From NCBI GenBank assembly GCA_013390785.1, contig JACASW010000009.1, forward strand, positions 1 to 37,204: 37,204 nt of DNA, read 5' to 3'. Positions 56 to 36,603 of the stretch are shown piece after piece; the stretch's first letter is position 1; each line of letters begins with the position of its first letter. Both the position numbers and the translations under genes were made by a program. This DNA comes from Marine Group I thaumarchaeote. Lineage in GTDB: Archaea; Thermoproteota; Nitrososphaeria; Nitrososphaerales; Nitrosopumilaceae. The notes under the pieces are model-generated. The model saw nothing but the letters and a program-made list of their open reading frames with translations, made no database searches and was not told the DNA's origin.

Positions 56-195
56 AGATCTCTGATTTTTACAATCGGAGTTTTTTTTGGTAATAATGAA
101 TCTAATAATTTACATGATTGGCCATCCTTCTTTCTTGAATAACCAAAATCTTTTAGGATCTTCTTGTATTTTGAATCCCAACCAACAATAGTCAT
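1..195 (-). CDS. mptE: 6-hydroxymethyl-7,8-dihydropterin pyrophosphokinase MptE, N-terminal part (continues at the right end)
   Basis: This is the first 65 codons of the archaeal MptE/DUF115 family kinase, which transfers pyrophosphate from ATP to 6-hydroxymethyl-dihydropterin in the cytosol. The ATG is at 195-193 and the protein starts MTIVGWDSKYKKILKDFG. The reading frame ends exactly at base 1 with the glycine-rich motif VFVVGAGPSLSSC. The rest lies at 36604-37149: codon 65 joins in frame to ISILKKNKKITKIVADGAT there, giving a full 246-residue protein, about the usual family length. The gene is divergent from the folP-like gene with only 22 bases between the two starts. The two genes act on successive pterin intermediates, so the arrangement looks native. 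The protein is broken only by the contig ends. Confidence 0.88.
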   Translation of the reverse strand, partial: MTIVGWDSKYKKILKDFGYSRKKDGQSCKLLDSLLPKKTPIVKIRDLIENKPVFVVGAGPSLSSC

Positions 196-217
196 ATGAC
201 TCAAATTAGCAGGGTTT

Positions 218-1078
218 ATGATAAATTGTGTGAATAAATTAGGAACTATTAGTGTAGGAGACTCGAATCCTGTCAGAATAATGGGAATTTTAAACACAAG
301 CCCTGAATCATTCTACAAAAAATCCATCTCAATTACCAAACAAAGAATTGTTGATGCGGTTAACAAAATGGAAGAAGAAGGTGCTGATTTTATTGATGTT
401 GGAGGCATGTCTACTGCACCATACCTTTCAACAATGGTATCAGAAAAAATTGAGATGGCTCGCATAGTTAATGCAGTTAAGATAATCCAACATACAACCA
501 ATTTGCCGATTTCTGTTGATACGTGTAGGGCTGCAGTGGCAAAAGAGGCTTTAGAATTAGGTGTGGATATAATCAATGATGTTACTGGTTTGAAATACGA
601 TCCATTTATGCCAAAAATAATTGAAAAATATTATCCATCGCTCATTTTGTGTGCATATAGTAAAAAAATCATTACAGGCAATCAACTGCTGGAAACAAGA
701 CAGTTGTTTAAAAAAAGTCTGGAAATAGCAAAATCAGTAAAAATTCCTAGAACGAAAATTGTTTTAGATCCTGCCATAGGATTTTTCAGGAAAAAAGGCA
801 AAAATTCTTTTTTTACAAAGATTAATTCGGATTGGGTCAAAAGAGATTTGTTGATTTTGGAAAATTTACGATCAATCAAATTGAATATGCCACTTCTTGT
901 ATCAGTTTCAAACAAATCATTCATTGGTAAAATTTTAAAAAAAGAAAATCCATCTGATAGACTCGCTGGATCATTAGCGGCTGAAGTAGTATGTGTCTTA
1001 AATGGAGCAAACATAATTCGTACTCATAATGTAGCAGAAACAAAGGAAGCAATCAGAACAGCTCAAAAGATATCATAA
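218..1078 (+). CDS. Dihydropteroate synthase family protein (FolP-like)
   Basis: A 286-residue TIM-barrel protein of the dihydropteroate synthase family, which couples 6-hydroxymethyl-dihydropterin pyrophosphate to an aromatic amine in folate or methanopterin synthesis. Visible family motifs are MGILNTSPESFY (residues 22-33, compare MGILNVTPDSF), IDVGGMSTAPY (the usual GGESTRPG loop is altered), ISVDTC, INDVTGL, IVLDPAIGF, SNKSFIG and the C-terminal RTHNV (usual RVHDV). Several substrate-loop positions differ from bacterial FolP, as is common in archaeal homologues, so the exact amine substrate is unknown. The ATG at 218 keeps the first beta strand; an internal ATG at 281 would remove it. It sits between mptE and guaB, fitting a GTP-to-pterin neighbourhood. 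The family is sure, the exact substrate is not. Confidence 0.85.
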   Translation: MINCVNKLGTISVGDSNPVRIMGILNTSPESFYKKSISITKQRIVDAVNKMEEEGADFIDVGGMSTAPYLSTMVSEKIEMARIVNAVKIIQHTTNLPISVDTCRAAVAKEALELGVDIINDVTGLKYDPFMPKIIEKYYPSLILCAYSKKIITGNQLLETRQLFKKSLEIAKSVKIPRTKIVLDPAIGFFRKKGKNSFFTKINSDWVKRDLLILENLRSIKLNMPLLVSVSNKSFIGKILKKENPSDRLAGSLAAEVVCVLNGANIIRTHNVAETKEAIRTAQKIS

Positions 1079-1100
1079 TGGCAAGAAAGGCTTATAACAC

Positions 1101-1109
1101 TTTTTTTTT
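1101..1109 (+). terminator. T-tract, possible terminator after folP-like gene
   Basis: A run of nine T lies 22 bases after the folP-like stop codon and before guaB. Archaeal RNA polymerase terminates at such U-tracts without a hairpin. Because guaB follows within 20 bases, termination may be partial. Only the T-run is seen; termination is inferred. Confidence 0.4.
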
Positions 1110-1117
1110 CTAGAGTA

Positions 1118-1122
1118 GGAGG
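1118..1122 (+). promoter_or_regulatory. Shine-Dalgarno site fixing the TTG start of guaB
   Basis: GGAGG lies five bases before the TTG at 1128. It is one of the few clear Shine-Dalgarno sites in the window, where many genes look leaderless. It supports TTG as the start codon, because no ATG is available at the right place for IMP dehydrogenase. Confidence 0.7.
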
Positions 1123-1127
1123 TTCGT

Positions 1128-2564
1128 TTGAATATACGAGAAGGATTGACATTTGATGATGTTCTCCTTGTACCCAAATTTTCAGATGTGACAAGCCGTT
1201 CTCAGACCGATCTTTCAACACAACTTTCTAGAAATATTTCGATAAATATTCCGTTAATCAGCGCCAACATGGATACAGTTACGGAAGCATCAATGGCGGT
1301 AACTATTGCCCGTGAGGGTGGTATAGGAATCATACATAGATTTCTGACAATTAAAGAAGAAGTAAATGAAGTTCTCAAAGTCAAGCGTTCCGGAAGTGTG
1401 ATGATAGAAAATCCATATACAATTAACCCTGAACAAACAATTCATAACGCTTTCATCACAATGAATGAAAAGCAGGTATCTGGACTTTTGGTTGTTGATT
1501 CTAACTCTAAATTAGTAGGAATTTTGACTGAGCGAGATGTATTATTTGAACCACCTAATTGCTCCAAGTTAGTTAAGGATCTAATGACAAAAGATGTTGT
1601 TACTGCAAAACAAGGTATTGATTTGGAAAAATCAAAAGAAATTCTCAAAAAGAACAGGATTGAAAAATTACCTATAATAGATGATAATAATCTAGTTAAA
1701 GGTCTGATAACGAGTCAGGATATTTCCAACTTGGAAAAATATCCTAATGCATCAAAAGATAACAAAGGACGGCCAATTGTTGGAGCAGCTGTTGGTGTTA
1801 AAGGTGATTTTATGGAAAGAACAGAAGCATTGATTGACGCAGGGACGGATGCTATAGTAGTTGACATAGCACACGGTCATAGCGAGAATGCTATAAACAC
1901 AGTGAAAAATATCAAAAAGGCATTTCCTAATTGTGAGCTTATTGCAGGAAATGTAGCAACAGCTAAAGGAACTGAAGATCTGATTAAGGCTGGTGTTGAT
2001 GCAGTAAAAGTTGGAGTTGGCTCTGGTTCTATTTGTATAACTAGAGTTATCACAGGCTCTGGAGTTCCACAGCTTACAGCTGTTATGGATTGTGCTAAAG
2101 TTGGAAATGAGCATGGCATACCAATAATTTCAGATGGAGGTACAAGAACCTCAGGTGACGCAACAAAAGCCTTGGCTGCAGGTGCATCTTCTATCATGGT
2201 AGGCGGTATATTTGGTGGAACGGATGAAACACCTGGTACCACAATTACAAAAAATAATAAACGATTCAAGATTTATCGCGGAATGGCATCTTTAGCAGCC
2301 TCCATGGGGAGGAAAACGAAAGAGACTGGAACTCTTGAGCTAACAGACGACATAAACGATTATGTCGCTGAGGGGGTAGAAGGTATGGTTCCATACAAAG
2401 GAAGTGTTACTGACATCATAACACAAATGACAGGAGGAATTCGTTCAGGACTGAGTTATTGTGGGGCTCATAACATAAAACAAATGCACAAAAATGCAGA
2501 ATTTATTAAAATATCACGAGCGGGATTCGCAGAAAGTCAGCCTCATGATGTAGACGTGATGTAG
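1128..2564 (+). CDS. guaB: Inosine-5'-monophosphate dehydrogenase
   Basis: A 478-residue IMP dehydrogenase, which oxidises IMP to XMP with NAD, the committed step to GMP. The N-terminal motif LTFDDVLLVP, two CBS domains (about residues 95-205), the phosphate-binding loop and the catalytic loop GVGSGSICITR with the active cysteine at residue 303 are all present. So are ISDGGTRTSGD, GGIFGGTDETPG and the C-terminal segment GGIRSGLSYCGA. Length is typical of the bacterial/archaeal enzyme. The start is TTG at 1128, supported by GGAGG upstream and by the family N-terminus NIREGLTFDDV. It is transcribed with the folP-like gene. guaA, the next step (XMP to GMP), is on the other side of mptE when the circle is closed. 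No inactivating change is seen. Confidence 0.97.
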   Translation: MNIREGLTFDDVLLVPKFSDVTSRSQTDLSTQLSRNISINIPLISANMDTVTEASMAVTIAREGGIGIIHRFLTIKEEVNEVLKVKRSGSVMIENPYTINPEQTIHNAFITMNEKQVSGLLVVDSNSKLVGILTERDVLFEPPNCSKLVKDLMTKDVVTAKQGIDLEKSKEILKKNRIEKLPIIDDNNLVKGLITSQDISNLEKYPNASKDNKGRPIVGAAVGVKGDFMERTEALIDAGTDAIVVDIAHGHSENAINTVKNIKKAFPNCELIAGNVATAKGTEDLIKAGVDAVKVGVGSGSICITRVITGSGVPQLTAVMDCAKVGNEHGIPIISDGGTRTSGDATKALAAGASSIMVGGIFGGTDETPGTTITKNNKRFKIYRGMASLAASMGRKTKETGTLELTDDINDYVAEGVEGMVPYKGSVTDIITQMTGGIRSGLSYCGAHNIKQMHKNAEFIKISRAGFAESQPHDVDVM

Positions 2565-2568
2565 TTAG

Positions 2569-2598
2569 TTTTTTATTTATCATTTTAGAGTTTTTTTT
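2569..2598 (+). terminator. T-rich tract after guaB
   Basis: The 34-base gap between guaB and the next gene holds a T6 run (2569-2574) and a T8 run (2591-2598) that ends directly at the next ATG. It fits an intrinsic archaeal terminator for guaB, or the leader of the downstream gene. No hairpin is visible. Confidence 0.4.
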
Positions 2599-3069
2599 AT
2601 GTTAAACAAGTATACTGTAATTGGTTTAATTGTCGGATGTATTATCTCAGGACTTGGTGTTGCTTCCATGATAGATTTCCTTGCAAATCCAATTGACATT
2701 ATGGATTTTGATGACAACTTCGGAGTTGGAGAATCAACTATATTTTCATTCCAAGCACCAGAAAACTCTTTACAAAAATTAATGATTACAGGAGATTCCT
2801 TTGACGTTAAAGTCTCAATACCGGATAATGTAGCAAAATTTGATAATAGTTACAAGAACACGGCAGATTTATCGTGGATAAATACTATTTCAGGTGAGAA
2901 TGTAATCAAAATTCAGAACATTGGAAATTCTGAATTAAATGCAAAAGGAACCTTGGAGAAATCACGAGACCCATTATTCCTCACATATCACATTTTAGTT
3001 ATTATAGCGGGTATTGTTGTAATTGGATTCAGTGCAGCTTTTACTGTAAGAAAGCCACGAGGATTCTAG
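2599..3069 (+). CDS. Hypothetical membrane protein with two transmembrane segments
   Basis: I do not recognise a named family. The 156-residue protein has a hydrophobic N-terminal segment (about residues 7-28, possible signal anchor), an extracytoplasmic domain of roughly 100 residues with beta-rich composition (FSFQAPENSL, DSFDVKVSIPDN, ENVIKIQNIGNSE), and a second membrane segment (about residues 128-148, LVIIAGIVVIGFSAAF) followed by the basic tail VRKPRGF. This is a common design for small thaumarchaeal envelope proteins with a domain outside the membrane. The ATG directly follows a T8 run, so the mRNA leader is likely short. The stop overlaps by four bases the stop region of the convergent pheA gene. 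Function unknown; it could be a small-ligand or protein-binding sensor. Confidence 0.75.
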   Translation: MLNKYTVIGLIVGCIISGLGVASMIDFLANPIDIMDFDDNFGVGESTIFSFQAPENSLQKLMITGDSFDVKVSIPDNVAKFDNSYKNTADLSWINTISGENVIKIQNIGNSELNAKGTLEKSRDPLFLTYHILVIIAGIVVIGFSAAFTVRKPRGF

Positions 3070-3881
3070 TCTAGCTTTGCAATAGGATACGAACCTAAAA
3101 TTTTCAGGAAAGTAGTATTATCTCTTAACTTTTGCAATACATCCTTAATTGCCGAGTCATCTTGATGACCCTCAAAGTCAACATAAAAATTGTATTCCCA
3201 TGCTGTATTTTTGTTTGGTCTAGATTCAATCTTTGTTAGATTTATTTTCTGCTGGTAAAACTCATTGATGATTTGATATAGGGCACCAGATTCATGTTTT
3301 ACCGAGAAAATTATCGACGTCTTGCTATTTTCAGTTTCATCACTCTTTTCTTTAGAAAATATCAAAAATCTAGTATAGTTATTTGTATTATCTTCAACAC
3401 CCTCTTGAATTACCGGAACATCAAAAATTTTTGCTGCGTTTGAACTTGCTATGCATGCTGCACTATTCTTATTCAAATCTTTGATAATTTTTACACTGCC
3501 AGCAGTGTCATAAGATGGAATAGTCTTTAATGAATTTTTTTGAATAAACTGCCTGCATTGACCTAAAGCTTGTGGGTGTGAATATACTGTATCAATATCC
3601 CCAATTGATCCTGTTCCTATAAGGCAATGATGTATTCTATGATAAATCTCACCTACGACATTAAGCTTCGTTGATAACAACAAGTCATTGCTTTCGCCCA
3701 CGCTTCCTTCAAGTGAATTTTCAACGGGCAAAACAGAGTAATCACTTGCACCGTTTTCTGTATTTTTTAATGCATCAGCAAAAGTAGAGCATGGAATAGT
3801 ATTTACCTCATCTCCAAAAAATGAAACTGATGCAGCTTCACTATATGCTCCTCGTTCACCTTGGAACGAAACACGCTTCAT
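3066..3881 (-). CDS. pheA: Prephenate dehydratase
   Basis: A 271-residue monofunctional prephenate dehydratase, which converts prephenate to phenylpyruvate for phenylalanine synthesis. The catalytic domain covers about residues 1-180 (VSFQGERGAYSEAA, LPVENSLEGSV, VYSHPQALGQC, and TRFLIF, whose Thr is in the family's catalytic TRF motif). A C-terminal ACT domain (about 190-271) contains ESGALYQIINEF (family GALYxxL) and ESRPNKNTAWEYNFYVDFEGH (family ESRP), the phenylalanine-binding site for feedback inhibition. It starts three bases after the stop of csl4, so it is the last gene of the minus-strand dph2-csl4-pheA run. Pairing with an exosome gene is only physical linkage. The sequence looks complete. 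Confidence 0.95.
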   Translation of the reverse strand: MKRVSFQGERGAYSEAASVSFFGDEVNTIPCSTFADALKNTENGASDYSVLPVENSLEGSVGESNDLLLSTKLNVVGEIYHRIHHCLIGTGSIGDIDTVYSHPQALGQCRQFIQKNSLKTIPSYDTAGSVKIIKDLNKNSAACIASSNAAKIFDVPVIQEGVEDNTNNYTRFLIFSKEKSDETENSKTSIIFSVKHESGALYQIINEFYQQKINLTKIESRPNKNTAWEYNFYVDFEGHQDDSAIKDVLQKLRDNTTFLKILGSYPIAKLD

Positions 3882-3884
3882 ATC

Positions 3885-4433
3885 TTATTCTCTCACTTTT
3901 AAGAAATCAGTTTTTAAAAAGTCATTTGATAGCTTTCTATCATCAGTCCATCCACATTCAACACATTTTATGATATCACGTAGTGGTTTTACACCCATAC
4001 CACATTTTCTACATTTCGTAAATAATACTCCTAATTCTGGATCCTGAATAGTGGCATGTATTGCTCCATTCAAATGTCCAATAATTTTCAGTTTGACTAG
4101 ATCTTTTACCAAGGCAACATTCTTTTTTCTAATATTTCTTGTTGCGCAAATACATTCTACCTGTGATTTGACTGGTCTAGAGTTTATGTATTTGATCATT
4201 ACAGCAATCATTGATCCCATCACAGCTTCAACTGTACCAATAACAATATCATCTTTTTCTGGAATTGAGATAGGCTTGTTATTTTTGACATTAACTAAAC
4301 GGTTTTTTTTATCAACTTCGCTTTCACCAATGACAGTAGCTCTAACAACATGACCATCATCACAAGCATTGCTTCCCGCCTCATATTCTTCAATTATAGC
4401 TATCTTGTCTCCTGGTAAAACTGAATTAGACAT
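3885..4433 (-). CDS. csl4: Exosome RNA-binding subunit Csl4
   Basis: A 182-residue Csl4, a cap subunit of the archaeal RNA exosome that feeds RNA to the Rrp41-Rrp42 core. An N-terminal domain (LPGDKIAIIEEYEAGSNAC, a Csl4 hallmark) is followed by an S1-type OB fold (about residues 60-130, starting DIVIGTVEAVMGSMIAV), and by a C-terminal zinc ribbon with two pairs of cysteines (CRKC and CVEC, about residues 141-160). In archaea this ribbon contacts DnaG, which recruits the complex to poly(A) RNA. The gene follows the dph2 part of the chimeric ORF after 32 bases and precedes pheA by three bases. Length is typical. The upstream chimera means its native promoter may be missing from this molecule. 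Confidence 0.93.
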   Translation of the reverse strand: MSNSVLPGDKIAIIEEYEAGSNACDDGHVVRATVIGESEVDKKNRLVNVKNNKPISIPEKDDIVIGTVEAVMGSMIAVMIKYINSRPVKSQVECICATRNIRKKNVALVKDLVKLKIIGHLNGAIHATIQDPELGVLFTKCRKCGMGVKPLRDIIKCVECGWTDDRKLSNDFLKTDFLKVRE

Positions 4434-4465
4434 GTATAACTTCTCAAATTATAGCTATTATTTGT

Positions 4466-5689
4466 TTACAGCCAGTGTTTTATCTGAAAATAATTCTCAA
4501 TGTTTTCTTTTCTTAGTAGTTTCATGAGGGCAACAGCCTGAGGGGTTGATAGAACAGGCTTATCAAACCTATTATCAGTTGAAATTCTTGGGCATGCTAC
4601 CTGAATAAAAGCATCAATATCTTTTAGATTCCTTAATCTTTCATTTGTAATATCCGTTAACGCAATGAGATGAACAGTTTTGCCTGCACTTTCTAACTCT
4701 TTTTTAAACTTAAGAGCAGTTAATTTAGAAATCTGACCTTCTTTTAATCCAACTATTACACCAAAAGTTTCCGCATCAACAGATTTGTAAATCTCTAAAG
4801 TAGCTTTTTTCTGTAATTTTTTCGCAAAGTCAGTAATTTCTCGTATCTCATTAAAGTATGGATCTAAAATGTAAGTTGGTTTGTTTGTAGCAAGAGCTAC
4901 CCCCGCAGCATGAAAGTTGCTTTGCCCTAAAAAGACGTTAGCATCTACATCATCAATCATTTCGGTTGCAGGATAGAATTCGCACCCAAAAACTTGTCCA
5001 TCGTTAAGTTGTCCGCTTCCTTTTCCAATTTTTACATTAACACCATTTTCTTCTAACACATTCTTAATTGACTCAATTTGGTTGAGGTGTTGACTATCCG
5101 TAATCAATGAAATTGTTTTTCCCAGAAGCAGCTTAGTGCATTTTTCTACAACTCTATCAAAAGAAATATCATCAAAAGCATCAATCATTATTACATTTTT
5201 TTCAAATGTTTCCATGCTGTTTGTATGGCCAATATTGAATAGTATTTCAGCATTCAATACTTTTGCTCCATTAGAATTCAGATCACAGGTGCCCCAGGTA
5301 GTATCAGCAAGTAGATAGGCTGGAATTCCATATTTCTTGCCAATTTTTAATGTTAGATCCTGTACTTTAGGCAATAAGCCATCTGGACCATTTAAGGCTA
5401 CAGAAGTAGGCTTGCGTGCCTCAATAATATCAAACTTTAACGCAGGATTGTCATAACCAATTTCCGCAATAGTATCTCTTACAACTTTTTCAATGTCAAA
5501 TTTGCCTTTTGATGTAACCTCACCAGCAACTGTAACAAAATCTGTTGTCACAAGTGTCTCAACCGCTACTCTCGAGTCTGGATCATGCCTAAGAAATTCG
5601 TCTAGTATAGCATCAGAAATATGATCAGATACTTTGTCTGGATGACCTTCAGTAACAGATTCTGACGTGAAAATATAGTTTTTTGCCAT
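4466..5689 (-). CDS. metK-dph2: Chimeric ORF: MetK N-terminus fused in frame to Dph2
   Basis: The 407-codon frame joins two unrelated enzymes. Residues 1 to ~87 are the start of a bacterial-type S-adenosylmethionine synthetase ([20 protein letters not shown] with its ATP-site histidine, then VAVETLVTT and VAGEVTS), about the first quarter of MetK; the remaining ~300 residues are absent. From about residue 88 the sequence is Dph2, the radical enzyme that makes the 3-amino-3-carboxypropyl histidine of diphthamide on aEF2 using SAM. It has ALNGPDGLL, the three cluster cysteines C135 (WGTCD), C236 (FGCEF) and C366 (ACPR), and a normal C-terminus. Spacing of the three cysteines (101 and 130) is close to that of known archaeal Dph2. 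Only about 10-25 N-terminal Dph2 residues are missing. I know of no natural MetK-Dph2 fusion. The metK end follows lsm by 13 bases, and the dph2 end precedes csl4 by 32 bases, so each half sits in a plausible native operon. The frame may be an accident of a DNA join. Confidence 0.9.
5425..5440 (-). other. Likely novel joint between metK and dph2
   Basis: MetK similarity fades after [12 protein letters not shown] and Dph2 similarity begins around [17 protein letters not shown], which places the join within about 5425-5440. Both halves share AT-rich codons here (AAG TTT GAT ATT), so a few bases of microhomology could have bridged the ends, but the parent sequences are not available to prove it. 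Because mptE is intact across the contig ends, this is the only visible broken-gene join on the circle. Confidence 0.7.
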
Positions 5690-5702
5690 TTGTAATTACA
5701 GT

Positions 5703-5945
5703 TTAAAGCTCATTTTCTAATTTGATAAAGAGTACGTTATTTCCTCGTAAAATTACTCTTCCAAACTTTTCAACGGTTTTGCCATCTCTTAGTTCTTCAG
5801 CGTCAGTCATTATCAAATTCATATAGGAATCGACATTAGCTATCTTACCTTTGTATTCAACATCATTTTTCAATCTAACAATAACGCTTTTTTTCGTGTT
5901 TTTTTGTAAGGTTGTTAATGGTCTTTTTGCTGTTGTTTGTGACAC
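5703..5945 (-). CDS. Sm-like (Lsm) archaeal RNA-binding protein
   Basis: An 80-residue Sm-fold protein that forms a ring and binds U-rich RNA in the cytosol. Sm1 is visible as KKSVIVRLKNDVEYKGKIANVDSYMNLIM (residues 18-46; key residues are the G of YKGKI and the DxxMNL motif, the RNA-binding loop), and Sm2 as GRVILRGNNVLFI (about 62-74, family IRGxxV). The start is GTG at 5945; the 102-base gap to the divergent RadB-like gene holds a TATA-like TTTAATTATA about 40 bases upstream. It lies 13 bases before the metK start, probably one transcript. Archaeal Lsm proteins associate with tRNA fragments and small RNAs. Complete and typical in length. Confidence 0.93.
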   Translation of the reverse strand: MSQTTAKRPLTTLQKNTKKSVIVRLKNDVEYKGKIANVDSYMNLIMTDAEELRDGKTVEKFGRVILRGNNVLFIKLENEL

Positions 5946-6047
5946 TTGTTATTCACTTAATGCAATTTTCCTTAGTCACTATAATTAAAGCCTTGCCTAT
6001 CGAATTATTTAGGAAAAATTCTTTAGTTTTTTAGTGTAAACAAAGCC

Positions 6048-6698
6048 ATGATCGAGACTGGATTAAAAAAACTGGATCAGTTTCTTGGTGGTGGGATTAA
6101 AGATGGATTAGTTACTAGTATTTCTGGGCAAAATGCTACTGGAAAAACACAGTTAGCATTTCAAATCTGTCTTGGTGCTTTACATAATGGTAAAGAAATT
6201 CTTTTCCAAGATACTACTGGTGGATTTAGACCTGAACGACTTGTTGAAATGATGCAATATAGGAAAATTAATTCATCATTACTTGATAAAATCAAGGTAA
6301 ATCGTGTTACTAATACTGCACAACAGATTAAATATTTATTAAAAACACCACTCGAAAACTACTCTTTAATTGTAGTTGATAGTGTAACAGATCTTTTCTC
6401 ATTCGAGTATTCAAAAAAAGAGCAATCTCTTGAAAAACATATTTCCTTTATGAAATACATGCATAGTTTATCAAGTATTGCCATTAAAAGAAAAATTCCT
6501 ATAATTGTAACTAACATTGTTAGAACTATTGACAAACGTGAGAAGGAAAACTTGGAAGAATCAATCAGCATGTATACACACACCAAAATTAAACTTTCAA
6601 AAGGTGATAATGGATATTTTTGTCAAGCCATTTCCCCATTTGATGATAAAAAATTTCAGTACACTATTACTTCTAGAGGTATTACTGATCAATCTTAA
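6048..6698 (+). CDS. RadB-like RecA-family ATPase
   Basis: A 216-residue single-domain RecA/RadA family ATPase without the N-terminal helix-hairpin-helix domain of RadA, as in RadB recombinase paralogues. It shows the entry GLKKLDQFLGGGIKDGLVTSISG, Walker A GQNATGKTQ (about residues 27-35), and Walker B LIVVDSVTDLF (about 105-115). A conserved TN near IIVTNIVRT fits the L2-proximal region. RadB modulates homologous recombination and Holliday-junction processing in euryarchaea; the role of the thaumarchaeal copy is inferred. It is divergent from lsm and followed by a small membrane ORF and the Lhr helicase, itself a repair gene. An alternative reading is a KaiC-like ATPase of unknown role. Confidence 0.8.
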   Translation: MIETGLKKLDQFLGGGIKDGLVTSISGQNATGKTQLAFQICLGALHNGKEILFQDTTGGFRPERLVEMMQYRKINSSLLDKIKVNRVTNTAQQIKYLLKTPLENYSLIVVDSVTDLFSFEYSKKEQSLEKHISFMKYMHSLSSIAIKRKIPIIVTNIVRTIDKREKENLEESISMYTHTKIKLSKGDNGYFCQAISPFDDKKFQYTITSRGITDQS

Positions 6699-6730
6699 TG
6701 TATTTAATACACTAAGAGTGTGTGTATTCA

Positions 6731-6850
6731 ATGACAGACTTTTTTGATTACATTCCAACTATAACTATTATTTTATTTGCAATGGGGATTATTGGTGCGA
6801 TAGCTTATGAGCGAGTTAGAACAAAAAATATTGAAGAACCCTCCCCTTGA
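6731..6850 (+). CDS. 39-residue single-pass membrane microprotein overlapping the lhr start
   Basis: ATG at 6731 opens a 39-codon frame ending TGA at 6848-6850. The product MTDFFDYIPTITIILFAMG continues IIGAIAYERVRTKNIEEPSP. That is a short acidic N-terminus, one hydrophobic segment (about residues 8-26), then a basic cytoplasmic tail, so topology outside-to-inside by the positive-inside rule. The last 44 bases overlap the start of the Lhr helicase in another frame, which could couple their translation. It lies 32 bases after the RadB-like stop. Nothing else explains the 108-base gap. It is too short to assign a family; its clear membrane-helix pattern and tail argue against chance, but conservation was not checked. 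Confidence 0.45.
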   Translation: MTDFFDYIPTITIILFAMGIIGAIAYERVRTKNIEEPSP

Positions 6851-9563
6851 AGCTTTTCTTGAAGAAAAATTTCATTCATTAGGATTTGAACAATTAACAG
6901 ACATACAGAAAAGATCACTACCAATAATTTACCAAAAAATCGATTCGTTGGTTATAGCTCCAACCGGCTCTGGTAAAACAGAATGCTCAGTGATTCCTAC
7001 TTTTTCACAGATCAAAAAAACAAAAAAGGAAGGAAAGATCAAGCTACTTTACATTACTCCGTTAAGATCACTTAACCGCGATGTTTTTCGACGAATAGCT
7101 AAATATGCTGAATTAGATGATCTAACAATTCAAGTTAGACATGGGGATACTTCTCAATCACTTAGAAAAAAAATTTCAGATTCACCACCTGACGTATTAA
7201 TTACAACACCAGAAACGCTTGTTATCCTTCTTACTCAACAAAAAATGTTAACTGCACTTTCTGAATTGGAACGAGTCATAGTTGATGAGGTACACGAGCT
7301 TTTGGCAAGTGAAAGAGGCTCACAATTATCAATAAGCCTAGAAAGACTACAACTTAACTCAAACCAAAAAATTACACGGACCGGCTTATCAGCTACCATT
7401 GGGAATATTGAAGACGCTGGACACTTTCTTGTTGGAACAAAGAAACCATGTAAGATAATTCGGGATAAATCAATGAGGAAATATAATGTTGAAGTCAAAT
7501 TTGTGAAAGGTTCAATTTCTGAAGTGGCTGATTCAATCATTCACTATATTGAAAAATCAGACATAAACTCTCCAGTTCTTTTGTTTACTAACACTAGGGG
7601 CGAATCTGAATTTTTAGCTTCAATACTAAGAGAAAAAACTTTGATGAATATAGAATTACACCATGGCTCATTATCAAAACAAGTTAGAGAAGAAACAGAA
7701 AGCATACTTCGGAGTGGAGCAGGTGGCATAGTTGTATGCACATCATCTCTTGAATTAGGATTGGATATTGGTTCGGTAGAACTTGTAATTCATTATGGTT
7801 CGCCACGTCAGGTATCAAAATTAATGCAACGAATAGGCAGGAGTAAGCATTTTCGAAATTCATCTGCAAGAGGACTAGTTATCACAAATAGACCTGATGA
7901 TGAATTTGAAACAAGAGCAATCCTTGATAGAATAAAAAATAGCTCCATTGAAGAACAAAAAATTCATAATGAATCTCTTGATGTTTTGGCCCATCATCTG
8001 GTTGGCTTGTCACTACAGATGGGGGAACTATCTATTGATTTTGCATATAAAATAATCAAACAAGCCTATCCATTTAGAAATTTAACATTAGATGAATTTT
8101 GTAATGTTCTAGAAATTTTGGATCAGATCTATATTTTATCTTTTGACAAGAAAAAAATGAAATTTTGGAAAACACGTAAAGCATTTAGATATTATTTTGA
8201 AAATCTTTCAACAATTCCAGATATTTTAAAATTCAGAGTATTTGATTCAGTAGGAAAGAAGATCATAGGATCCTTAGATCAAAGGTTTGTAGGAGATCAT
8301 GGTGAAGCGGGAAACATATTTGTCCTCCGTGGAATGCAGTGGAGGATACTGAATATTGACGAAAAAGCTTTGCAAGTAAATGTTGAACCAATCAGAGGTG
8401 AACGAAAAAATGTACCTTACTGGGAGGGAGAAAACATTCCCATAGATTACGATACTGCACAAAAAGTTGGATTGTTCAGAAATAAAGTAAAACATGGTTC
8501 ATTATCGATGTTTAACAATATAATTTCGGATCTAGATTTTAACATTATACCTGATGAGAAAACTATTGTAATTGAATCTGTGAGAACAGATCGTAATGTA
8601 GTTATTCATGCATGTTTTGGTACAAAAATCAATTCAACTCTAGCAACTACACTTTCTTCACTACTAGAATCAACTCTTGGATATGTTGTTCAGTCAAGAT
8701 CAGATGCATATAGAATTATTTTGGAATCTAATGCAAGAATCAGCAAGAAGATCATTGTGGAGACTTTAACTGAAGAATTTGTTCTTCGTGACATTGTAAC
8801 TGCATCTTTGATTGGGACACATAATGTTAATTGGAGAACATGGTGTGTTGCAAAAAAATTTGGAATGGTGGGTCGTGGTGCTATTTATGATAGAAAATCG
8901 GGCCGTTTTATTTATGAGCGATATCAAAACACACCAGTTGTTATCGAGGCATTAAGAGAGCTGTTTCACGACAAATTTGATCTAAATGGTACTGAATCTA
9001 TCTTAAGCAGAATCAGAAATAATGAAATTCAGATTGAATGGGTTGATGTTGACAAATTTTCAAAACTAGCAGAACCATTATTAGATCACGCTACAAAATA
9101 TTACGCATCTCCGGCAAGTGTGGATAAGGCAATTCTCGATTTAGTAAAAAAGCGGCTGTTGAAAACTAAACGGCGTCTAATTTGTGCTCGCTGTGGTAAA
9201 TGGCAACTAGCAGTCATTACGGAAGAAGTAAAGAAAAATCTTCATTGTAAATATTGTAAGAGTAGACAAATTACAAATACGTTTTATACGGATTATGATT
9301 TGGTTAAAATCATTCAGAAAAAATATAATGGTAAAAAACTTTCTGCTGAAGAAAATAAAAGTTTTAAGCGAGCCTGGACAGTTGCTTCGCTGATTGAAAC
9401 TTTTGGTAAAAATGCTTCAATTGTATTAGCGGGACATGGTATTGGTGCTGATACTGCGAAAAGGATTTTACGAAATATGACTGATCCAGATCTTATGTAT
9501 AAACAAATTTACGAAGCTGAAAGACAGTATGTAATGACAAGACCTTTTTGGGATGATAATTAA
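6807..9563 (+). CDS. lhr: Lhr-type superfamily 2 ATP-dependent DNA helicase
   Basis: A 918-residue large helicase-related protein. RecA domain 1 shows the Q motif (FEQLTDIQKRSLP), Walker A APTGSGKT (residues 51-58), TPLRSL, TTPETL, the DEVH box (160-163) and SAT in GLSATIG. RecA domain 2 has LLFTNTRGESE, HHGSLSKQVR, TSSLELGLDIG and QRIGRSKH. A long C-terminal part holds the winged-helix and DUF1998-free Lhr-core region and a zinc ribbon (CARC at 793-796 and CKYC about 20 residues later). Archaeal Lhr-core unwinds DNA and RNA-DNA hybrids 3'-5' at stalled forks. Its stop overlaps by four bases the stop of convergent rpa. Start ATG 6807 overlaps the microprotein gene. Length matches Lhr-core rather than the much longer bacterial Lhr. 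Confidence 0.92.
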   Translation: MSELEQKILKNPPLEAFLEEKFHSLGFEQLTDIQKRSLPIIYQKIDSLVIAPTGSGKTECSVIPTFSQIKKTKKEGKIKLLYITPLRSLNRDVFRRIAKYAELDDLTIQVRHGDTSQSLRKKISDSPPDVLITTPETLVILLTQQKMLTALSELERVIVDEVHELLASERGSQLSISLERLQLNSNQKITRTGLSATIGNIEDAGHFLVGTKKPCKIIRDKSMRKYNVEVKFVKGSISEVADSIIHYIEKSDINSPVLLFTNTRGESEFLASILREKTLMNIELHHGSLSKQVREETESILRSGAGGIVVCTSSLELGLDIGSVELVIHYGSPRQVSKLMQRIGRSKHFRNSSARGLVITNRPDDEFETRAILDRIKNSSIEEQKIHNESLDVLAHHLVGLSLQMGELSIDFAYKIIKQAYPFRNLTLDEFCNVLEILDQIYILSFDKKKMKFWKTRKAFRYYFENLSTIPDILKFRVFDSVGKKIIGSLDQRFVGDHGEAGNIFVLRGMQWRILNIDEKALQVNVEPIRGERKNVPYWEGENIPIDYDTAQKVGLFRNKVKHGSLSMFNNIISDLDFNIIPDEKTIVIESVRTDRNVVIHACFGTKINSTLATTLSSLLESTLGYVVQSRSDAYRIILESNARISKKIIVETLTEEFVLRDIVTASLIGTHNVNWRTWCVAKKFGMVGRGAIYDRKSGRFIYERYQNTPVVIEALRELFHDKFDLNGTESILSRIRNNEIQIEWVDVDKFSKLAEPLLDHATKYYASPASVDKAILDLVKKRLLKTKRRLICARCGKWQLAVITEEVKKNLHCKYCKSRQITNTFYTDYDLVKIIQKKYNGKKLSAEENKSFKRAWTVASLIETFGKNASIVLAGHGIGADTAKRILRNMTDPDLMYKQIYEAERQYVMTRPFWDDN

Positions 9564-12715: not shown

Positions 12716-12723
12716 AAAAATAG

Positions 12724-12795
12724 TAGCCCGGCCCGGACTCGAACCGAGGTCAAAGGCTCCAAGGGCCCCTATGCTTGCCACTACACTACCGGGCT
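12724..12795 (-). tRNA. tRNA-Gln (anticodon UUG)
   Basis: A 72-nt cloverleaf. Acceptor AGCCCGG pairs fully with CCGGGCT, discriminator A at 12724, no encoded CCA. The D-arm is GTGT/GCAT, the anticodon stem GGGGC/GCCTT (two G-U pairs), and the T-arm CTCGG-TTCGAGT-CCGGG. The seven-base anticodon loop is CCTTGGA, giving UUG at positions 34-36, glutamine. Position 33 is C, not the nearly universal U. In archaea this tRNA is charged with Glu then amidated by GatDE, encoded at 18982-22391. Confidence 0.9.
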
Positions 12796-18852: not shown

Positions 18853-18915
18853 ACTCGACTATTTTGTGTTTACTCACGAAAAAGAAACTTATTCTATGTT
18901 TTTTCTTTTCTTGTT

Positions 18916-19000
18916 GCGGGGGTCGCCCAGCCTGGCCAACGGCGTAAGGTTCAGATCCTTATCTCCTAGGAGTTCGTGGGTTCAAATCCCACTTCCCGCA
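18916..19000 (+). tRNA. tRNA-Leu (anticodon CAG)
   Basis: An 85-nt class II tRNA. Acceptor GCGGGGG pairs with TTCCCGC (two G-U pairs), discriminator A at 19000. The anticodon stem TAAGG/CCTTA is perfect, with loop TTCAGAT, so anticodon CAG reads CUG. A long variable arm (about TCTCCTAGGAG) marks a class II leucine tRNA. The T-arm is GTGGG-TTCAAAT-CCCAC. No CCA encoded and no intron. The last 19 bases overlap the 3' end of gatE on the other strand. Confidence 0.95.
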
Positions 19001-21105
19001 TTTTTATAATTCTGAATCTCTTTTTGCCAATATTCTGCTATTCGTTTACGTGGAAACGAGGAAGCTTGTTTTATTGACAATCCCATCAGAGTTTGTAAAT
19101 GACCATTCTTCACAAATTCCATATTATTTTGTTTTATTCCATCTAAAATTTGATATAAAGAATCATACATCACATTGTCCATTGGGCTACCAAGATATTC
19201 TTTAATTACGTGTAACATCTTCCAAGGATCCATATGTCTTCTGCCACCTACTAGAATACCGGGCTGGCCGGTTTCGGGTGGACCTACTTCCAAGTGTTTG
19301 CGCAGTTCTTCCACGGTTAGTGGAATTTTCAACTTCTCCATATTTTCGAAATCATTTTTGAGCTGGTCTGGTATGTTTTCTGGAATTTTACCTGACACAA
19401 TGTATTCAAAAATAGTTTCCAAGTAATCTTTGAATATTTTATTAGACGCAAATAGTTTAAAGAATTCTATAATGACTGTGTCATTCTTGTGGCATGGACA
19501 AGTGAATTTGCGTTTCAATCGGCTGGTATCAAATCCTTTCCTTTTCCAGTTTATCATATTCGAAGTGAGTATTGAGAAAACATAAGCTGGTGTAGGCTCT
19601 CCAGGAAGCATTTCTGACTTTTTAATTTCACATATTTTTACAAACTCCTCTGCGTATTCTGAGTCAAAAATTTGTTCAGCCTGTTCTTTGTTTAGGTTGT
19701 ATTTTTTCTGAATTTTAGATATCGCTTCATCCCATGTTGGTGTTGTATCTGCTTCATCCATTGCACGTTTTACTTCTTTCGGCTTTATGCTAATGGAAGG
19801 GATATCAGTTTCTGGATACATTCTTGACGCACCAGGACGCGGTCTAAGGAAAACAGTCTCGCCTTCTTGTGTGGCAGCTCTGGTCTCTGCTGGTACTCCG
19901 CTAGTTGCATCTTGGATTCTCTTTATTATGGAATCTATAGCATAATCCAACTTTGGATCCTCACCAGCTATAATCAGGAAACCATCTTGGTTTGTTAATT
20001 CAAGATGCTTTCTTATTTTATCAACATCAGAATCGTTAATCCCGTAATTAGGCAGCTCATCCGAATGGAAAACTCCTCCAATGCCAAAAAATCTTACAAG
20101 CTGTCCAATTTCTTTTCCCAATCTAATTCCAGAGTATGGTTCAAAACCAAAAATACCCGAAAAATTTCTTAGACGTATTGCCTTAATTTTTGCTTTTGAT
20201 TTCAGTGCATTTTGAATTATTTTTGATTCGCATTCCTTGAGAACTTGAGAAATATCAAAAACATCTTCTTCTGTGATTGTTATTGATAGTTTTTTGAGTT
20301 TTTCACCAATCTGAATTAGTCCGTGTTGTCTTTTGGCTTCATAACCAATTATTTTTTCAAGTTGGTCTAGTTGCTGTACGCCCTTCACTTCTACAACTCC
20401 ACCGCCACCACTGACTGAAATGTTTACATCCTGTCTAACGGAACCAATTCCTCTTTTTACCTTCCCTGTTACTCTTAAATTTCTTCCAAGCGTTAATGCA
20501 ATTTCCTTAACTTCAGAGGGCTTGGTACTGACAGGTTCTAAGGCAATTTCAACTAATGGTACACCCAAACGATCCAAACTGTAATTCGTTTCATTTTGTT
20601 CATTACTGAGAAGTTTCGCTGCATCCTCCTCAAGACAAACTGCTTGCACTCCAATCTTTTTTCCACCCACCTTTAGATTTCCTCCCTGGGAAACAAGCAT
20701 GGTTCTTTGAAAGCCAGACGTGTTAGAGCCATCAATGACGGTCTTTCTCATAACGTGAATCTCGCTGAAAATTTTTGATTCAAGCATGCTGCTAATCAGT
20801 AATGAAACCTCCTTTGCACTATGATCTAGATCATGAGGAGGCTCTTCGTCTTTTTCAACCAAGCAACTGCTTTGAGAATTTGCATAGTAATTGATTTTCT
20901 TTGCTTTTGCCTTCTCAAACAGTGCAGCCGGATCTGTTTCTCCAAGCTCACTTTTTGCCGTTCTTAAGCTTCTAGAGAATTTTTCAGTATATTCATCATT
21001 CTCTATCGGCTTGCATTTGCAAAATAATTTTTTATCTGTATTCAGCTGTTGGTGAATTTCTAATCCGACCTTCAAACCAATTTTTTCGAAATCAATTTCT
21101 GTCAT
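18982..21105 (-). CDS. gatE: Glu-tRNA(Gln) amidotransferase subunit E
   Basis: A 707-residue GatE, the tRNA-binding and kinase subunit that converts Glu-tRNA(Gln) to Gln-tRNA(Gln) with GatD. The GatB/E core is clear: KVGLEIHQQLNT, KLFCKCKP, EDAAKL, DRLGVPLVEIALEP, GIGSVRQDVNISV and EVKGVQQL. A GAD domain (about residues 290-410) and the GTP/AspRS-like GASRMYPETDIPSI follow. The tail is about 80 residues longer than commonly seen in archaeal GatE and contains FTCPCHKND and a segment with VGPPETGQPGILVGGRRHMDPW that I do not match to the usual C-terminal helical/YqeY region. It ends with the stop TGA at 18982, inside the antisense tRNA-Leu T-arm. It follows gatD by two bases, one operon. Confidence 0.95.
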   Translation of the reverse strand: MTEIDFEKIGLKVGLEIHQQLNTDKKLFCKCKPIENDEYTEKFSRSLRTAKSELGETDPAALFEKAKAKKINYYANSQSSCLVEKDEEPPHDLDHSAKEVSLLISSMLESKIFSEIHVMRKTVIDGSNTSGFQRTMLVSQGGNLKVGGKKIGVQAVCLEEDAAKLLSNEQNETNYSLDRLGVPLVEIALEPVSTKPSEVKEIALTLGRNLRVTGKVKRGIGSVRQDVNISVSGGGGVVEVKGVQQLDQLEKIIGYEAKRQHGLIQIGEKLKKLSITITEEDVFDISQVLKECESKIIQNALKSKAKIKAIRLRNFSGIFGFEPYSGIRLGKEIGQLVRFFGIGGVFHSDELPNYGINDSDVDKIRKHLELTNQDGFLIIAGEDPKLDYAIDSIIKRIQDATSGVPAETRAATQEGETVFLRPRPGASRMYPETDIPSISIKPKEVKRAMDEADTTPTWDEAISKIQKKYNLNKEQAEQIFDSEYAEEFVKICEIKKSEMLPGEPTPAYVFSILTSNMINWKRKGFDTSRLKRKFTCPCHKNDTVIIEFFKLFASNKIFKDYLETIFEYIVSGKIPENIPDQLKNDFENMEKLKIPLTVEELRKHLEVGPPETGQPGILVGGRRHMDPWKMLHVIKEYLGSPMDNVMYDSLYQILDGIKQNNMEFVKNGHLQTLMGLSIKQASSFPRKRIAEYWQKEIQNYKNAGSGI

Positions 21106-31915: not shown

Positions 31916-33583
31916 ATGGCATTAATTCAGATTTCCAATCAATCGACTAAATCATTGGGCAAAAAGTCTACCATTCGTTTTACTCAAAGTATTTGTCCTG
32001 ATTGTAATATGATTCTGGACGCTGAGGTATTTGAAAGAGATGAACAAGTCTTCATGTCAAAGGTTTGTCCAACACACGGAGAATGTGAAGAACTGTATTT
32101 CGGTTCTTATGACATGTACAAGAAATTTAGTACTTATTGGGTAGATGGAAAGGGAGCCCACGCACCAAATGTAATGATGGAAGACAAATGTTCATGTCCA
32201 AATAATTGTGGGCTTTGTACTAATCACCTTTCTCATAGCGGTCTGGCAAATATCATAGTAACAAACAGATGTGATCTTACATGCTGGTATTGTTTCTTTT
32301 ATGTCAAGAAAGGTCTTGAGGGTGCTTACATGTATGAACCAAGCCAAGATCAAGTACGCGCTATGATGAAAACGCTTAGGGCAGAAAGACCAATACCTGG
32401 AAATTCTATGCAGATTACCGGCGGTGAGCCAATGTTAAGAGAAGATATTACTGATTTAATCAAGATAATGAAAGAAGAGCACGTTGATCATATACAAATG
32501 AATACCAACGGAATACGTCATGCATTAGATCCAGAAGCTGGCAGAGATGTAAGAATGGCAGGATGTAACAATCTTTATCTTAGTTTTGATGGTGTAACAG
32601 CAAGAACTAATCCAAAAAATCACTGGGAGATCCCATATGCATTAGATACTTGTAGAAAAACAGGAACTACTGTAGTCTTTGTTCCAACTGTAATTAAATC
32701 AATTAATGATCATGAGCTTGGTGGTATTATTAGGTATGCACAAAAGAATATGGATGTTGTACATGCAGTAAACTTCCAACCAGTGTCGTTGACTGGAAGG
32801 ATGGGAAAAACTGAAAGAGAAAAGTATAGAATTACTGTTCCTGATTGTATACAGAGAATAGAGGAACAAACACAAGGTCAGGTGACTGTTGATGATTGGT
32901 ATCCTGTACCAAGTTGTATGCCACTTACAAATGTGATTGAAGCATTTTCGAGTAAACCAAAGTACGAACTGTCAATTCATTTTGCATGTGGTGCAGGTAC
33001 ATATATTTTTGAAGATGCGGATACAAAGAAATTTGTTCCTATGACACGATTCTGTGACCTTCAAGGAATGCTTGAGTTATTTGAGGATAAATCAGAAGAA
33101 ATTCGTTCTGGTGCTAACAAGTACTTTACAATGTTAGAAGTAGTAAGAAAACTGAAAGGCTTTATTGATAGGGACAAACAGCCAGCTGGTCTCGATTTGG
33201 CTAAAATGTTTAGTAGCATACTAATGAAAAGATCTTTTGACGCAGTTGGAGGCTTCCATGTCAAGGGATTGTTCTTAGGCATGATGCACTTCCAAGACAA
33301 GTATAATGAAGACCTTGAAAGATTACAAAGATGTGACATACATTACACTACACCAGACCTTAGAGTCATTCCTTTCTGCGCGTTCAATGTAATTCCAGAA
33401 TGGTATAGAGACAGAATACAAAAGAAATATTCCATGACTGTTGAGGAATGGGAAGAAAGAGAAGGTGAAAAACTCGAAGATGGCCTTTACAGAGGTCTTA
33501 TGAGAAGGGGTGCAGGAGACGATCTTGCCTCAGGTTGTGCCAAGAGTCAGATGTTCCATGATGCACAACAGGCAACAATGTAA
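31916..33583 (+). CDS. tes: Radical-SAM tetraether lipid synthase (Tes-like)
   Basis: A 555-residue radical-SAM protein of the Tes family, which joins two archaeol lipids tail to tail to make tetraether (GDGT) membrane lipids. The radical-SAM site is CDLTCWYC (C119, C123, C126), with ITGGEP (SAM binding) about 50 residues on. The many other cysteines fit extra metal sites: C27, C30, C51 and C57 (SICPDC and KVCPTHGEC) and C92, C94, C98 and C101 (KCSCPNNCGLC). Near the C-terminus FCAFNVIPEWYRD is another family-typical motif. It is divergent from TrmB and DtxR-type regulators, with a TATA 28 bases upstream. Homologues may act on other prenyl substrates; I rank Tes first because thaumarchaea make GDGTs. 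Confidence 0.8.
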   Translation: MALIQISNQSTKSLGKKSTIRFTQSICPDCNMILDAEVFERDEQVFMSKVCPTHGECEELYFGSYDMYKKFSTYWVDGKGAHAPNVMMEDKCSCPNNCGLCTNHLSHSGLANIIVTNRCDLTCWYCFFYVKKGLEGAYMYEPSQDQVRAMMKTLRAERPIPGNSMQITGGEPMLREDITDLIKIMKEEHVDHIQMNTNGIRHALDPEAGRDVRMAGCNNLYLSFDGVTARTNPKNHWEIPYALDTCRKTGTTVVFVPTVIKSINDHELGGIIRYAQKNMDVVHAVNFQPVSLTGRMGKTEREKYRITVPDCIQRIEEQTQGQVTVDDWYPVPSCMPLTNVIEAFSSKPKYELSIHFACGAGTYIFEDADTKKFVPMTRFCDLQGMLELFEDKSEEIRSGANKYFTMLEVVRKLKGFIDRDKQPAGLDLAKMFSSILMKRSFDAVGGFHVKGLFLGMMHFQDKYNEDLERLQRCDIHYTTPDLRVIPFCAFNVIPEWYRDRIQKKYSMTVEEWEEREGEKLEDGLYRGLMRRGAGDDLASGCAKSQMFHDAQQATM

Positions 33584-33618
33584 CTAAAACTTCAAAACTT
33601 ACTGAATAAACTATATTC

Positions 33619-34488
33619 GTGCATAAAATTGGAATTGATCTTGGCGGAACCAAGATTGAAGGAATTTTACTAGATGAAAAATATAACACAATTCAACGCA
33701 AACGCATTGAAACACACCAAGAAAATGGCTATGATTCTATTGTAAAGTCTATCATATCTTTGGTGAACGAATTAAAAGAAAAAACAAGTGAAGAAATAAC
33801 TGTTGGAATGTGTACACCCGGTGTTACTAACACTAATTCAGGATTGATCAAAAACAGCAATACCCAATGCCTCATAGGAATGCCATTGAAAAATGATATT
33901 GAGAATATACTTGGTTGTGAAATTGCTATGGAGAATGATGCCAACTGTTTTGCACTTTCAGAGTCAATATTAGGATCTGCTAAAGGATACGATGCTGTTT
34001 TTGGAGTAATAATGGGAACAGGTGTTGGAGGCGGGATTGTAATTAATGAAACTTTACACAAAGGAAGAACAAACATTGCCGGCGAATGGGGGCATCACAC
34101 ACTACATCCTAATGGAAATGGGTGTTATTGTGGAAAGCAAGGATGTGTTGAGACGTATATCAGCGGGCCTGCTCTTGAAAAGCGTTGGCTAGAAATTACT
34201 GGAAAAAAAGAACCGTTGCAATCAATAGTACAAGATTTCTCTGACGAAAAAGCAAAACAATGGAAGGAAGAGTTTCTTGAAAATTTTGGAATTAGTCTTG
34301 CGAACGTAATTGACATTTTAGATCCAGATGTTATTGTTTTAGGAGGGGGTGTTTCAAACATACCTTTCTTGTATGATGAAGGGAAAGAAGCGGTTTATGA
34401 TAAAGTGTTTAGTGATTCAGTTGATACACCAATACTAAAAAATAGTCTTGGTGATTCGGCTGGTGTTTTTGGTGCCTGTATGATATGA
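33619..34488 (+). CDS. ROK-family sugar kinase
   Basis: A 289-residue ROK protein. The ATP-binding motif IGIDLGGTKIEGIL (residues 4-17), GMCTPGV, the catalytic aspartate in MENDANCFALSE (about 111), and MGTGVGGGIV are intact. A zinc-binding motif GCYCGKQGCVE and VIVLGGGVS follow. Because the DNA-binding helix-turn-helix of ROK repressors is absent, it is a kinase, probably of glucose, fructose or N-acetylmannosamine. Start is GTG at 33619: MHKIGIDLGG is the family N-terminus. It lies 35 bases after tes on the same strand and its stop touches the stop of convergent guaA. A link to lipid glycosylation is only a guess. Confidence 0.92.
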   Translation: MHKIGIDLGGTKIEGILLDEKYNTIQRKRIETHQENGYDSIVKSIISLVNELKEKTSEEITVGMCTPGVTNTNSGLIKNSNTQCLIGMPLKNDIENILGCEIAMENDANCFALSESILGSAKGYDAVFGVIMGTGVGGGIVINETLHKGRTNIAGEWGHHTLHPNGNGCYCGKQGCVETYISGPALEKRWLEITGKKEPLQSIVQDFSDEKAKQWKEEFLENFGISLANVIDILDPDVIVLGGGVSNIPFLYDEGKEAVYDKVFSDSVDTPILKNSLGDSAGVFGACMI

Positions 34489-36012
34489 TTATTGTGGTTC
34501 TATTGTAGCAGGTGGCTTGCTTGACACCACATAAGATACCCAAGTAACATCGTCAATCTCATTTGTAATTCTATTACTTATCTTCTCTAGTAGTTCATTT
34601 GGTAATCTAGTCCAGTCTGCAGTCATTGCATCTATAGAATCTACAATTCTAATCATTACAATATTACCATATTTTCTTTCATCTCCAACAACACCAACAG
34701 CCTTATCATCTCCTACTGCAGCATATGCTTGCCAAACTTTATCATACAAGTCTGCACTTTGTAATTCCTCTTCTACTATCTTACTTGCAACCCTTGTGAT
34801 TTCCAATTTCTTTTTTGTAACTTCACCGATAATTCTTACTGCTAGACCAGGTCCCGGAAATGGATGCCGCACAAGTAAATTTTGAGGAACTCCAATAATC
34901 TTTGCAACCTTTCGCACTTCATCTTTGTACAAATCACGAAGTGGTTCCAAAACTTTCAGCGCCAGCCAATCCGGTAGACCACCAACGTTATGATGTGTTT
35001 TGATTACTGATGCAGGTCCTTTTGATACACCACTTTCAATTACGTCGGGGTAAAGAGTTCCCTGAGCAAGCCAGGTAAACGGCTCATTTTCCTTGGAAAA
35101 TTTTGTAAAAATTTTAACAAATTCTTCGCCCACAATCTTCCTTTTTTCTTCCGGATCAGTTACTCCTATTAGTTTCGAAAGAAATTGGTCCTGTGCATCA
35201 ATCTTTGTAAAATTAACTTGAAAATTCTTCTTAAACATATTTTCCACCTCTTCTGCCTCATCTAGTCTTAAAAGACCATTATCAACGAAAACACATTTTA
35301 GCCTATTTCCAATTGCTTTGTGAATCAATAATGATGCTACAGTAGAATCAATACCACCACTAACTCCACACAGAACGTTTCCATCCACTTTGGAAATATT
35401 TTCAACAGAATTTTCAACAAATTTTTCCATAGTCCAATCTTGATTTGCATTACAAACTTTTAGGACAAAATTTTTTAGAATTTCAGTTCCTTTTTCTGTG
35501 TGTACTACTTCAGGATGAAATTGAATTCCAAATACCGTTTTCTGTTTGTTTGCAATAGCTGCAGAACGTGAGCTTTCGGTATGGCCAATTATTTCAAAAT
35601 CTTTTGGCACATTCTCTGCTTCATCTCCATGACTCATCCATGCTCTGACAGAATCTCCAATCCCATTGAGAATGTCTGAATTGTTGTCAATCGTGAGTAC
35701 AGATGAACCATACTCTTTGTTTGCGCGCTTTATTTTACCACCAAAATTATTCACAATAATTTGATGACCATAACATATTCCTAATATTGGCACGTTTAGC
35801 TGAAAGATTTTTCTATCAGGTACAGGCGCATTGGAATCATATACACTTGATGGTCCACCAGAAAAGATAATTCCTTTTGGGTTTAACTTCTTTATGTTCT
35901 CTAAGGAAGTATCAAACGGTAAAAGTTCTGCATATACTGAAAAATCTCTAATTCGTCTACATATCAGATGACTATACTGTGAGCCAAAATCTAAAACCAC
36001 GATTTTATCCAT
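34489..36012 (-). CDS. guaA: GMP synthase (glutamine-hydrolysing)
   Basis: A ~507-residue fused GMP synthase that aminates XMP to GMP with glutamine and ATP. The class I amidotransferase domain (about 1-190) has ILGICYGHQII with the nucleophile cysteine, and GIQFHPEVVHTE with the catalytic His-Glu. The ATP pyrophosphatase domain shows the PP-loop VSGGIDSTVAS, and the C-terminal dimerisation domain has RHPFPGPGLAVRIIGEV and DWTRLPNELLEKISNRI. Many archaea carry the two halves as separate genes, so the fused form is notable. I choose the start at MDKIVVLDFGSQYSHLI (36012, with ATG 36015 next to it), which follows directly the stop of the upstream gene. The longer frame to 36033 would overlap it by 17 bases. 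Confidence 0.96.
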   Translation of the reverse strand: MDKIVVLDFGSQYSHLICRRIRDFSVYAELLPFDTSLENIKKLNPKGIIFSGGPSSVYDSNAPVPDRKIFQLNVPILGICYGHQIIVNNFGGKIKRANKEYGSSVLTIDNNSDILNGIGDSVRAWMSHGDEAENVPKDFEIIGHTESSRSAAIANKQKTVFGIQFHPEVVHTEKGTEILKNFVLKVCNANQDWTMEKFVENSVENISKVDGNVLCGVSGGIDSTVASLLIHKAIGNRLKCVFVDNGLLRLDEAEEVENMFKKNFQVNFTKIDAQDQFLSKLIGVTDPEEKRKIVGEEFVKIFTKFSKENEPFTWLAQGTLYPDVIESGVSKGPASVIKTHHNVGGLPDWLALKVLEPLRDLYKDEVRKVAKIIGVPQNLLVRHPFPGPGLAVRIIGEVTKKKLEITRVASKIVEEELQSADLYDKVWQAYAAVGDDKAVGVVGDERKYGNIVMIRIVDSIDAMTADWTRLPNELLEKISNRITNEIDDVTWVSYVVSSKPPATIEPQ

Positions 36013-36016
36013 CATA

Positions 36017-36562: not shown

Positions 36563-36603
36563 ACATCTACTTATCTAAAACGATATTAAAACGCATCCTA
36601 CTG

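Follow-up and report, generated by a model that had tools for sequence, protein, structure and literature searches.

The in-frame joint between metK and dph2 described here is very probably an in vitro chimera from whole-genome amplification, by which a 37-kb piece of chromosome was turned into a false circle. The window, that is, the whole stretch of 37,204 nucleotides that was analysed, is the entire contig C26 of an assembly (G000) of 949,320 bases in 26 contigs that is 81.84% complete. The DNA of this assembly had presumably been amplified (multiple displacement amplification, MDA, of a single amplified genome).

The fusion ORF and the circular contig

The following features of the window are referred to below.

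4466-5689, minus strand: fusion ORF, MetK N-terminal domain followed by Dph2, 407 aa (ORF call and profile searches)
5429-5689, minus strand: metK 5' fragment, residues 1-87 (the sole TIGR01034 metK match in the assembly)
4466-5434, minus strand: dph2 without about nine first codons (profile searches and comparison with relatives)
5429-5434, no strand: joint, six bases that metK and dph2 have in common in relatives; here the circle closes (match to relatives)
1-55, no strand: terminal 55-base repeat, copy one (identical to 37150-37204; closure collinear with relatives)
37150-37204, no strand: terminal 55-base repeat, copy two (identical to 1-55)
33582-33600, no strand: second adjacency seen only in the window, a probable inversion breakpoint (comparison with relatives)

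The in-frame MetK-Dph2 fusion reported in the first-pass annotation is real in the sequence: a single ORF of 407 aa carries both Pfam domains, S-AdoMet_synt_N at aa 4-90 (E = 1.1e-36) and Diphthamide_syn at aa 102-400 (E = 5e-70). NCBIfam agreed with Pfam (metK at aa 6-88 and arCOG04112, Dph2, at aa 96-390), and relatives of solved structure were found for both halves. Cysteines occur at positions 135, 184, 236 and 366 of the ORF, so that the three named by that annotation (C135, C236 and C366), which we take to be the ligands of the Fe-S cluster, are all present. The annotation had also estimated that about 300 residues of MetK and 10-25 residues of Dph2 are gone. The former estimate holds, with about 298 of 385 residues absent relative to the relative G010, and the latter was slightly too high; compared with G010, the Dph2 part lacks about nine residues (MIVIDEEKI), if the start in G010 is that Met.

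We then located the joint by comparison with relatives. The window matches their metK up to the bases TTTGAT (sense; plus-strand positions 5429-5434, residues 86-87 of the fusion) and their dph2 from TTTGAT onward. This switch between the two genes at six bases shows that the frame does mark a DNA joint, as had been claimed, and that the interval first given for it (5425-5440) was too wide. The joint connects two non-adjacent genomic segments with few shared bases, as MDA chimeras do. When joints between metK and dph2 of G010 were placed at random, at least six shared bases were found in 0.3% of 200,000 trials. That the frame remains open across the joint is a matter of luck, with a chance of 1 in 3.

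The first and last 55 bases of C26 are identical, which makes the contig a circle of 37,149 bases. DNA across the contig-end closure is collinear with the relatives G010 and G028; therefore, nothing is anomalous about the contig ends, which represent ordinary chromosome. The circle closes at 5429-5434, in agreement with the earlier proposal that the metK-dph2 joint is the point where it was made. Two tRNA genes are present in the window (12723-12795 and 18915-19001), neither of which is near a joint. Searches against family libraries were confined to the fusion ORF, and the other ORFs of the window were judged from their translations, among which we recognised many genes that we take to be core genes, and neither a replication gene nor a recombinase gene.

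metK and dph2 in related genomes

The fusion query was matched in 57 of 60 relatives, and in none of the 60 did a match extend over both halves. Both halves were present at separate places in 32 of the 60 (counted by hand from the listing), which bears out the suggestion that each half has native neighbours of its own. Similarly, 11 related loci were found in genome_contigs, including Marine Group I thaumarchaeote and Candidatus Nitrosopelagicus, and none of them matched over both halves. The viral contigs contained no relatives of the fusion and no instance of the exact joint pattern. An intact copy of the fusion in independent genomes had been named as the observation that would speak against a novel joint; given that 0 of the 60 relatives have it, the claim of a joint is not refuted.

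In G028, metK and dph2 are located on one contig and on the same strand, about 83 kb apart. Window positions 5429-33597 map in pieces to 35.9-64.0 kb of G028, and positions 33617-37193 together with 167-5413 map to 110.6-119.6 kb. Read in the direction of transcription, dph2 precedes metK. Given this order, the succession of a metK start and a dph2 end is a backward joint, such as arises in a chimera, in a tandem repeat or in a circular molecule; a deletion between the two genes cannot produce it. The simple deletion between adjacent metK and dph2 that had been offered as an alternative thus does not fit the gene order in G028.

Missing flanks, contig ends and the origin of the joint

It had been suggested that the same dataset be searched for the missing 3' part of metK and 5' part of dph2. 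This search showed that the neighbouring DNA resumes at the very ends of two other contigs of the assembly, C2 and C3, and that the parts themselves are absent. TIGR01034 gave one metK match only in the assembly, namely the N-terminal part in the fusion, and no archaeal-type metK (PF01941) was found there. The missing metK part belongs towards C2: with G010 as the query, the match starts 603 bases past the metK stop, at the last base of C2 (152540), about 1.5 kb from the joint. The missing dph2 part belongs towards C3. The 5' flank of dph2 in G010 gave nothing in the assembly over about 12.7 kb, except for three matches of <100 bases on C1 and C18, and C3 picks up this flank (in G010 coordinates) from its last base, 76925. 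By these matches, C26 is a piece of ordinary chromosome that belongs between C2 and C3, separated from each of them by a gap.

We also compared the contig ends of the assembly, using the 23 contigs with readable ends (C7, C8 and C9 read as N and were left out). Exact 55-base inverted ends, which correspond to hairpin loops in the assembly graph, were found in four of the 23, C10, C16, C20 and C22. In C10, C16 and C20, each of the two ends shares a 55-base overlap with one and the same end of a neighbouring contig (C18, C23 and C15, respectively), and C22 has no exact overlap with any neighbour. Plain 55-base overlaps connect C2 with C17, C4 with C13, C5 with C17, and C12 with C25; C26 overlaps itself only. 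The 55-base end of C22 resembles the 3' end of C23, where the outermost bases differ and there is no exact 55-base overlap. Among the small contigs, C4 had a GC content of 42.4%, compared with 28.1-36.6% in the other nine small contigs measured, and it could be foreign or contaminating.

The hairpin-ended contigs were then compared with relatives. The relative G026 runs straight through bases 1-7132 of C22, the last 55 bases of which are its beginning reversed, with an overlap of six bases. In G010 and in G007, this 55-mer has a single matching site. On this comparison, C22 is clearly an inverted jump over about 7.1 kb. The last 55 bases of C20 match its beginning reversed in G007, G025 and G010, and relatives carry the rest of the contig split up over several locations. 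The bases shared at the jump number nine by G007 and seven by G010 and G026, and C20 is probably also an inverted jump, with weaker support than C22. C10 showed weak matches only in relatives and C16 showed no match in the loci compared; the hairpins of these two contigs are candidate chimeras and are unconfirmed. As a control, inverted ends were found in none of 10 contigs of G010 and none of 10 contigs of G030 (inverted terminal matches did not exceed 2 bases, and direct ones of 15 bases or more were absent), although G010 is possibly itself amplified, in which case this control would not distinguish amplified assemblies from unamplified ones.

It has previously been reported, in the passages of Lasken and Stockwell 2007 (PMC1855051) drawn on here, that 85% of 475 MDA chimeras were inverted and 15% direct, that inverted jumps within 10 kb were the main product, and that direct chimeras mostly joined positions more than 10 kb apart. 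The same passages describe up to 21 shared bases at the chimeras and about one junction per 22 kb. The segments in C26 are likewise joined in reversed order at few shared bases, and a direct joint over more than 10 kb (C26) and an inverted jump within 10 kb (C22) both belong to classes that these passages describe (PMC1855051). However, the C26 joint differs from the chimeras of these passages in that it closes a whole 37-kb contig, and its origin in amplification is one that we infer. In addition, complementary bases were seen there in only 27.6% of direct chimeras of more than 10 kb (PMC1855051), that is, shared bases are uncommon in the long-range direct class; the six at the C26 joint are therefore not typical of that class, as far as these passages describe it. 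Inverted hairpins together with a direct backward joint across 37 kb agree with the MDA picture, although the numbers are small and two or three of the four hairpins are no more than probable or candidate jumps.

Thus, C26 consists of a chromosome stretch of about 37 kb, from the start of metK to the end of dph2, the ends of which are joined backwards at six shared bases. We propose that this stretch was an amplified island, and that a 3' end displaced at one of its edges may have mis-primed on the six matching bases at the opposite edge. If coverage stopped at both edges, the chimeric path would have been the only one open to the assembler, and a circle would have been reported. The first-pass annotation had regarded the joint as a novel one in the cell; the flanks in C2 and C3 and the hairpin-ended contigs point instead to a chimera of whole-genome amplification.

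We also considered the possibility that the circle is real. Extrachromosomal circular DNA can form by microhomology, and C26 resembles such DNA: it is a circular piece of chromosome, and a short sequence is shared at its joint. Excision in the cell at the six shared bases, perhaps then favoured by amplification, would account for a circular contig with a single joint, and metK and dph2 are in direct orientation, as excision requires. However, excision leaves a reciprocal scar that joins the metK 3' part to the dph2 5' part. None was seen at C2 and C3, which end about 1.5 and 12.7 kb short of the joint, so that this is an absence of data and no disproof. Moreover, the translations pointed to many core-looking genes and to none that we recognised as a replication or recombinase gene, and the further chimeras elsewhere in the assembly offer a simpler cause. 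It therefore seems unlikely that a 37-kb circle with many core-looking genes was really excised from the chromosome of a Nitrosopelagicus-like cell at the six bases that metK and dph2 share. If true, core-looking genes would have been moved out of the chromosome to an extrachromosomal element, which would be striking.

A misjoin by the assembler, with no joined molecule behind the joint, would agree with the loss of both flanks, as happens at coverage gaps. However, gap closing by assemblers needs longer overlaps than six bases, and the shared stretch is far below the 55-base overlaps seen between contig ends, which makes this explanation very improbable. If the 37 kb were duplicated in tandem on the chromosome, the joint would lie between the copies, and intact metK and dph2 would be present at the outer ends. 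Such a duplication would give the same backward joint and would remove the problem of essentiality, because both genes are kept. In that case, the assembly graph should branch and break the contig at the joint, whereas C26 closes on itself and overlaps no other readable end; the metK 3' part is also absent from the assembly, and we consider a duplication to be still less probable. The explanation least to be expected is a genuine fused gene that replaced metK in this lineage: the frame is open across the joint, but the fusion is absent from all 60 relatives, the circular contig closes at this very joint, and an assembly that is 81.84% complete without a full TIGR01034 or PF01941 metK would mean that the enzyme was lost, unless it lies in a gap.

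Plasmid and phage candidates were rejected. The region 4400-6700 matches 13 plasmid records, in a short stretch within the metK part and over at most 10% of the query, and the matches of two phage records to the region 3000-8000 cover 2-4% of the query. Perfect circularity of a contig in a draft genome does not by itself make it a plasmid, and inverted ends on other contigs of that assembly quickly give warning of this. In the collection of papers searched, there was no paper combining diphthamide, S-adenosylmethionine synthetase, gene fusion and archaea, and none combining Nitrosopelagicus, single amplified genomes and extrachromosomal.

A second adjacency near position 33,583

A second adjacency at 33582-33600 is flanked by the end of what is presumably a radical-SAM-like ORF and by what is presumably a ROK-kinase-like ORF, both named from the sequence. 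No match in 36 relatives spans this adjacency, and its two sides occur at separate places in 11 same-genus relatives (counted by hand). If the segments concerned are denoted A, A', B and C, then, in the assembly under study, the window carries A-B, and A'-C is found on contig C18, near 69955-69979. In G026, A adjoins A' (contig C29, 84684/84692) and C adjoins B (contig C37, 3361/3345), and the breakpoints in the two assemblies agree within about 15 bases. In G010, C also adjoins B, and A' is located about 1.2 kb from A.

We considered whether a second chimera lies near 33,583 and set this aside, given that the reciprocal product is found on C18. Since both products of one exchange are present, two chance chimeras are unlikely and hardly to be expected. 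From the order of the segments in relatives, the adjacency is probably a real, lineage-specific chromosomal inversion with breakpoints between genes. Such an inversion would in addition have shortened the distance between metK and dph2 to no more than 37 kb.
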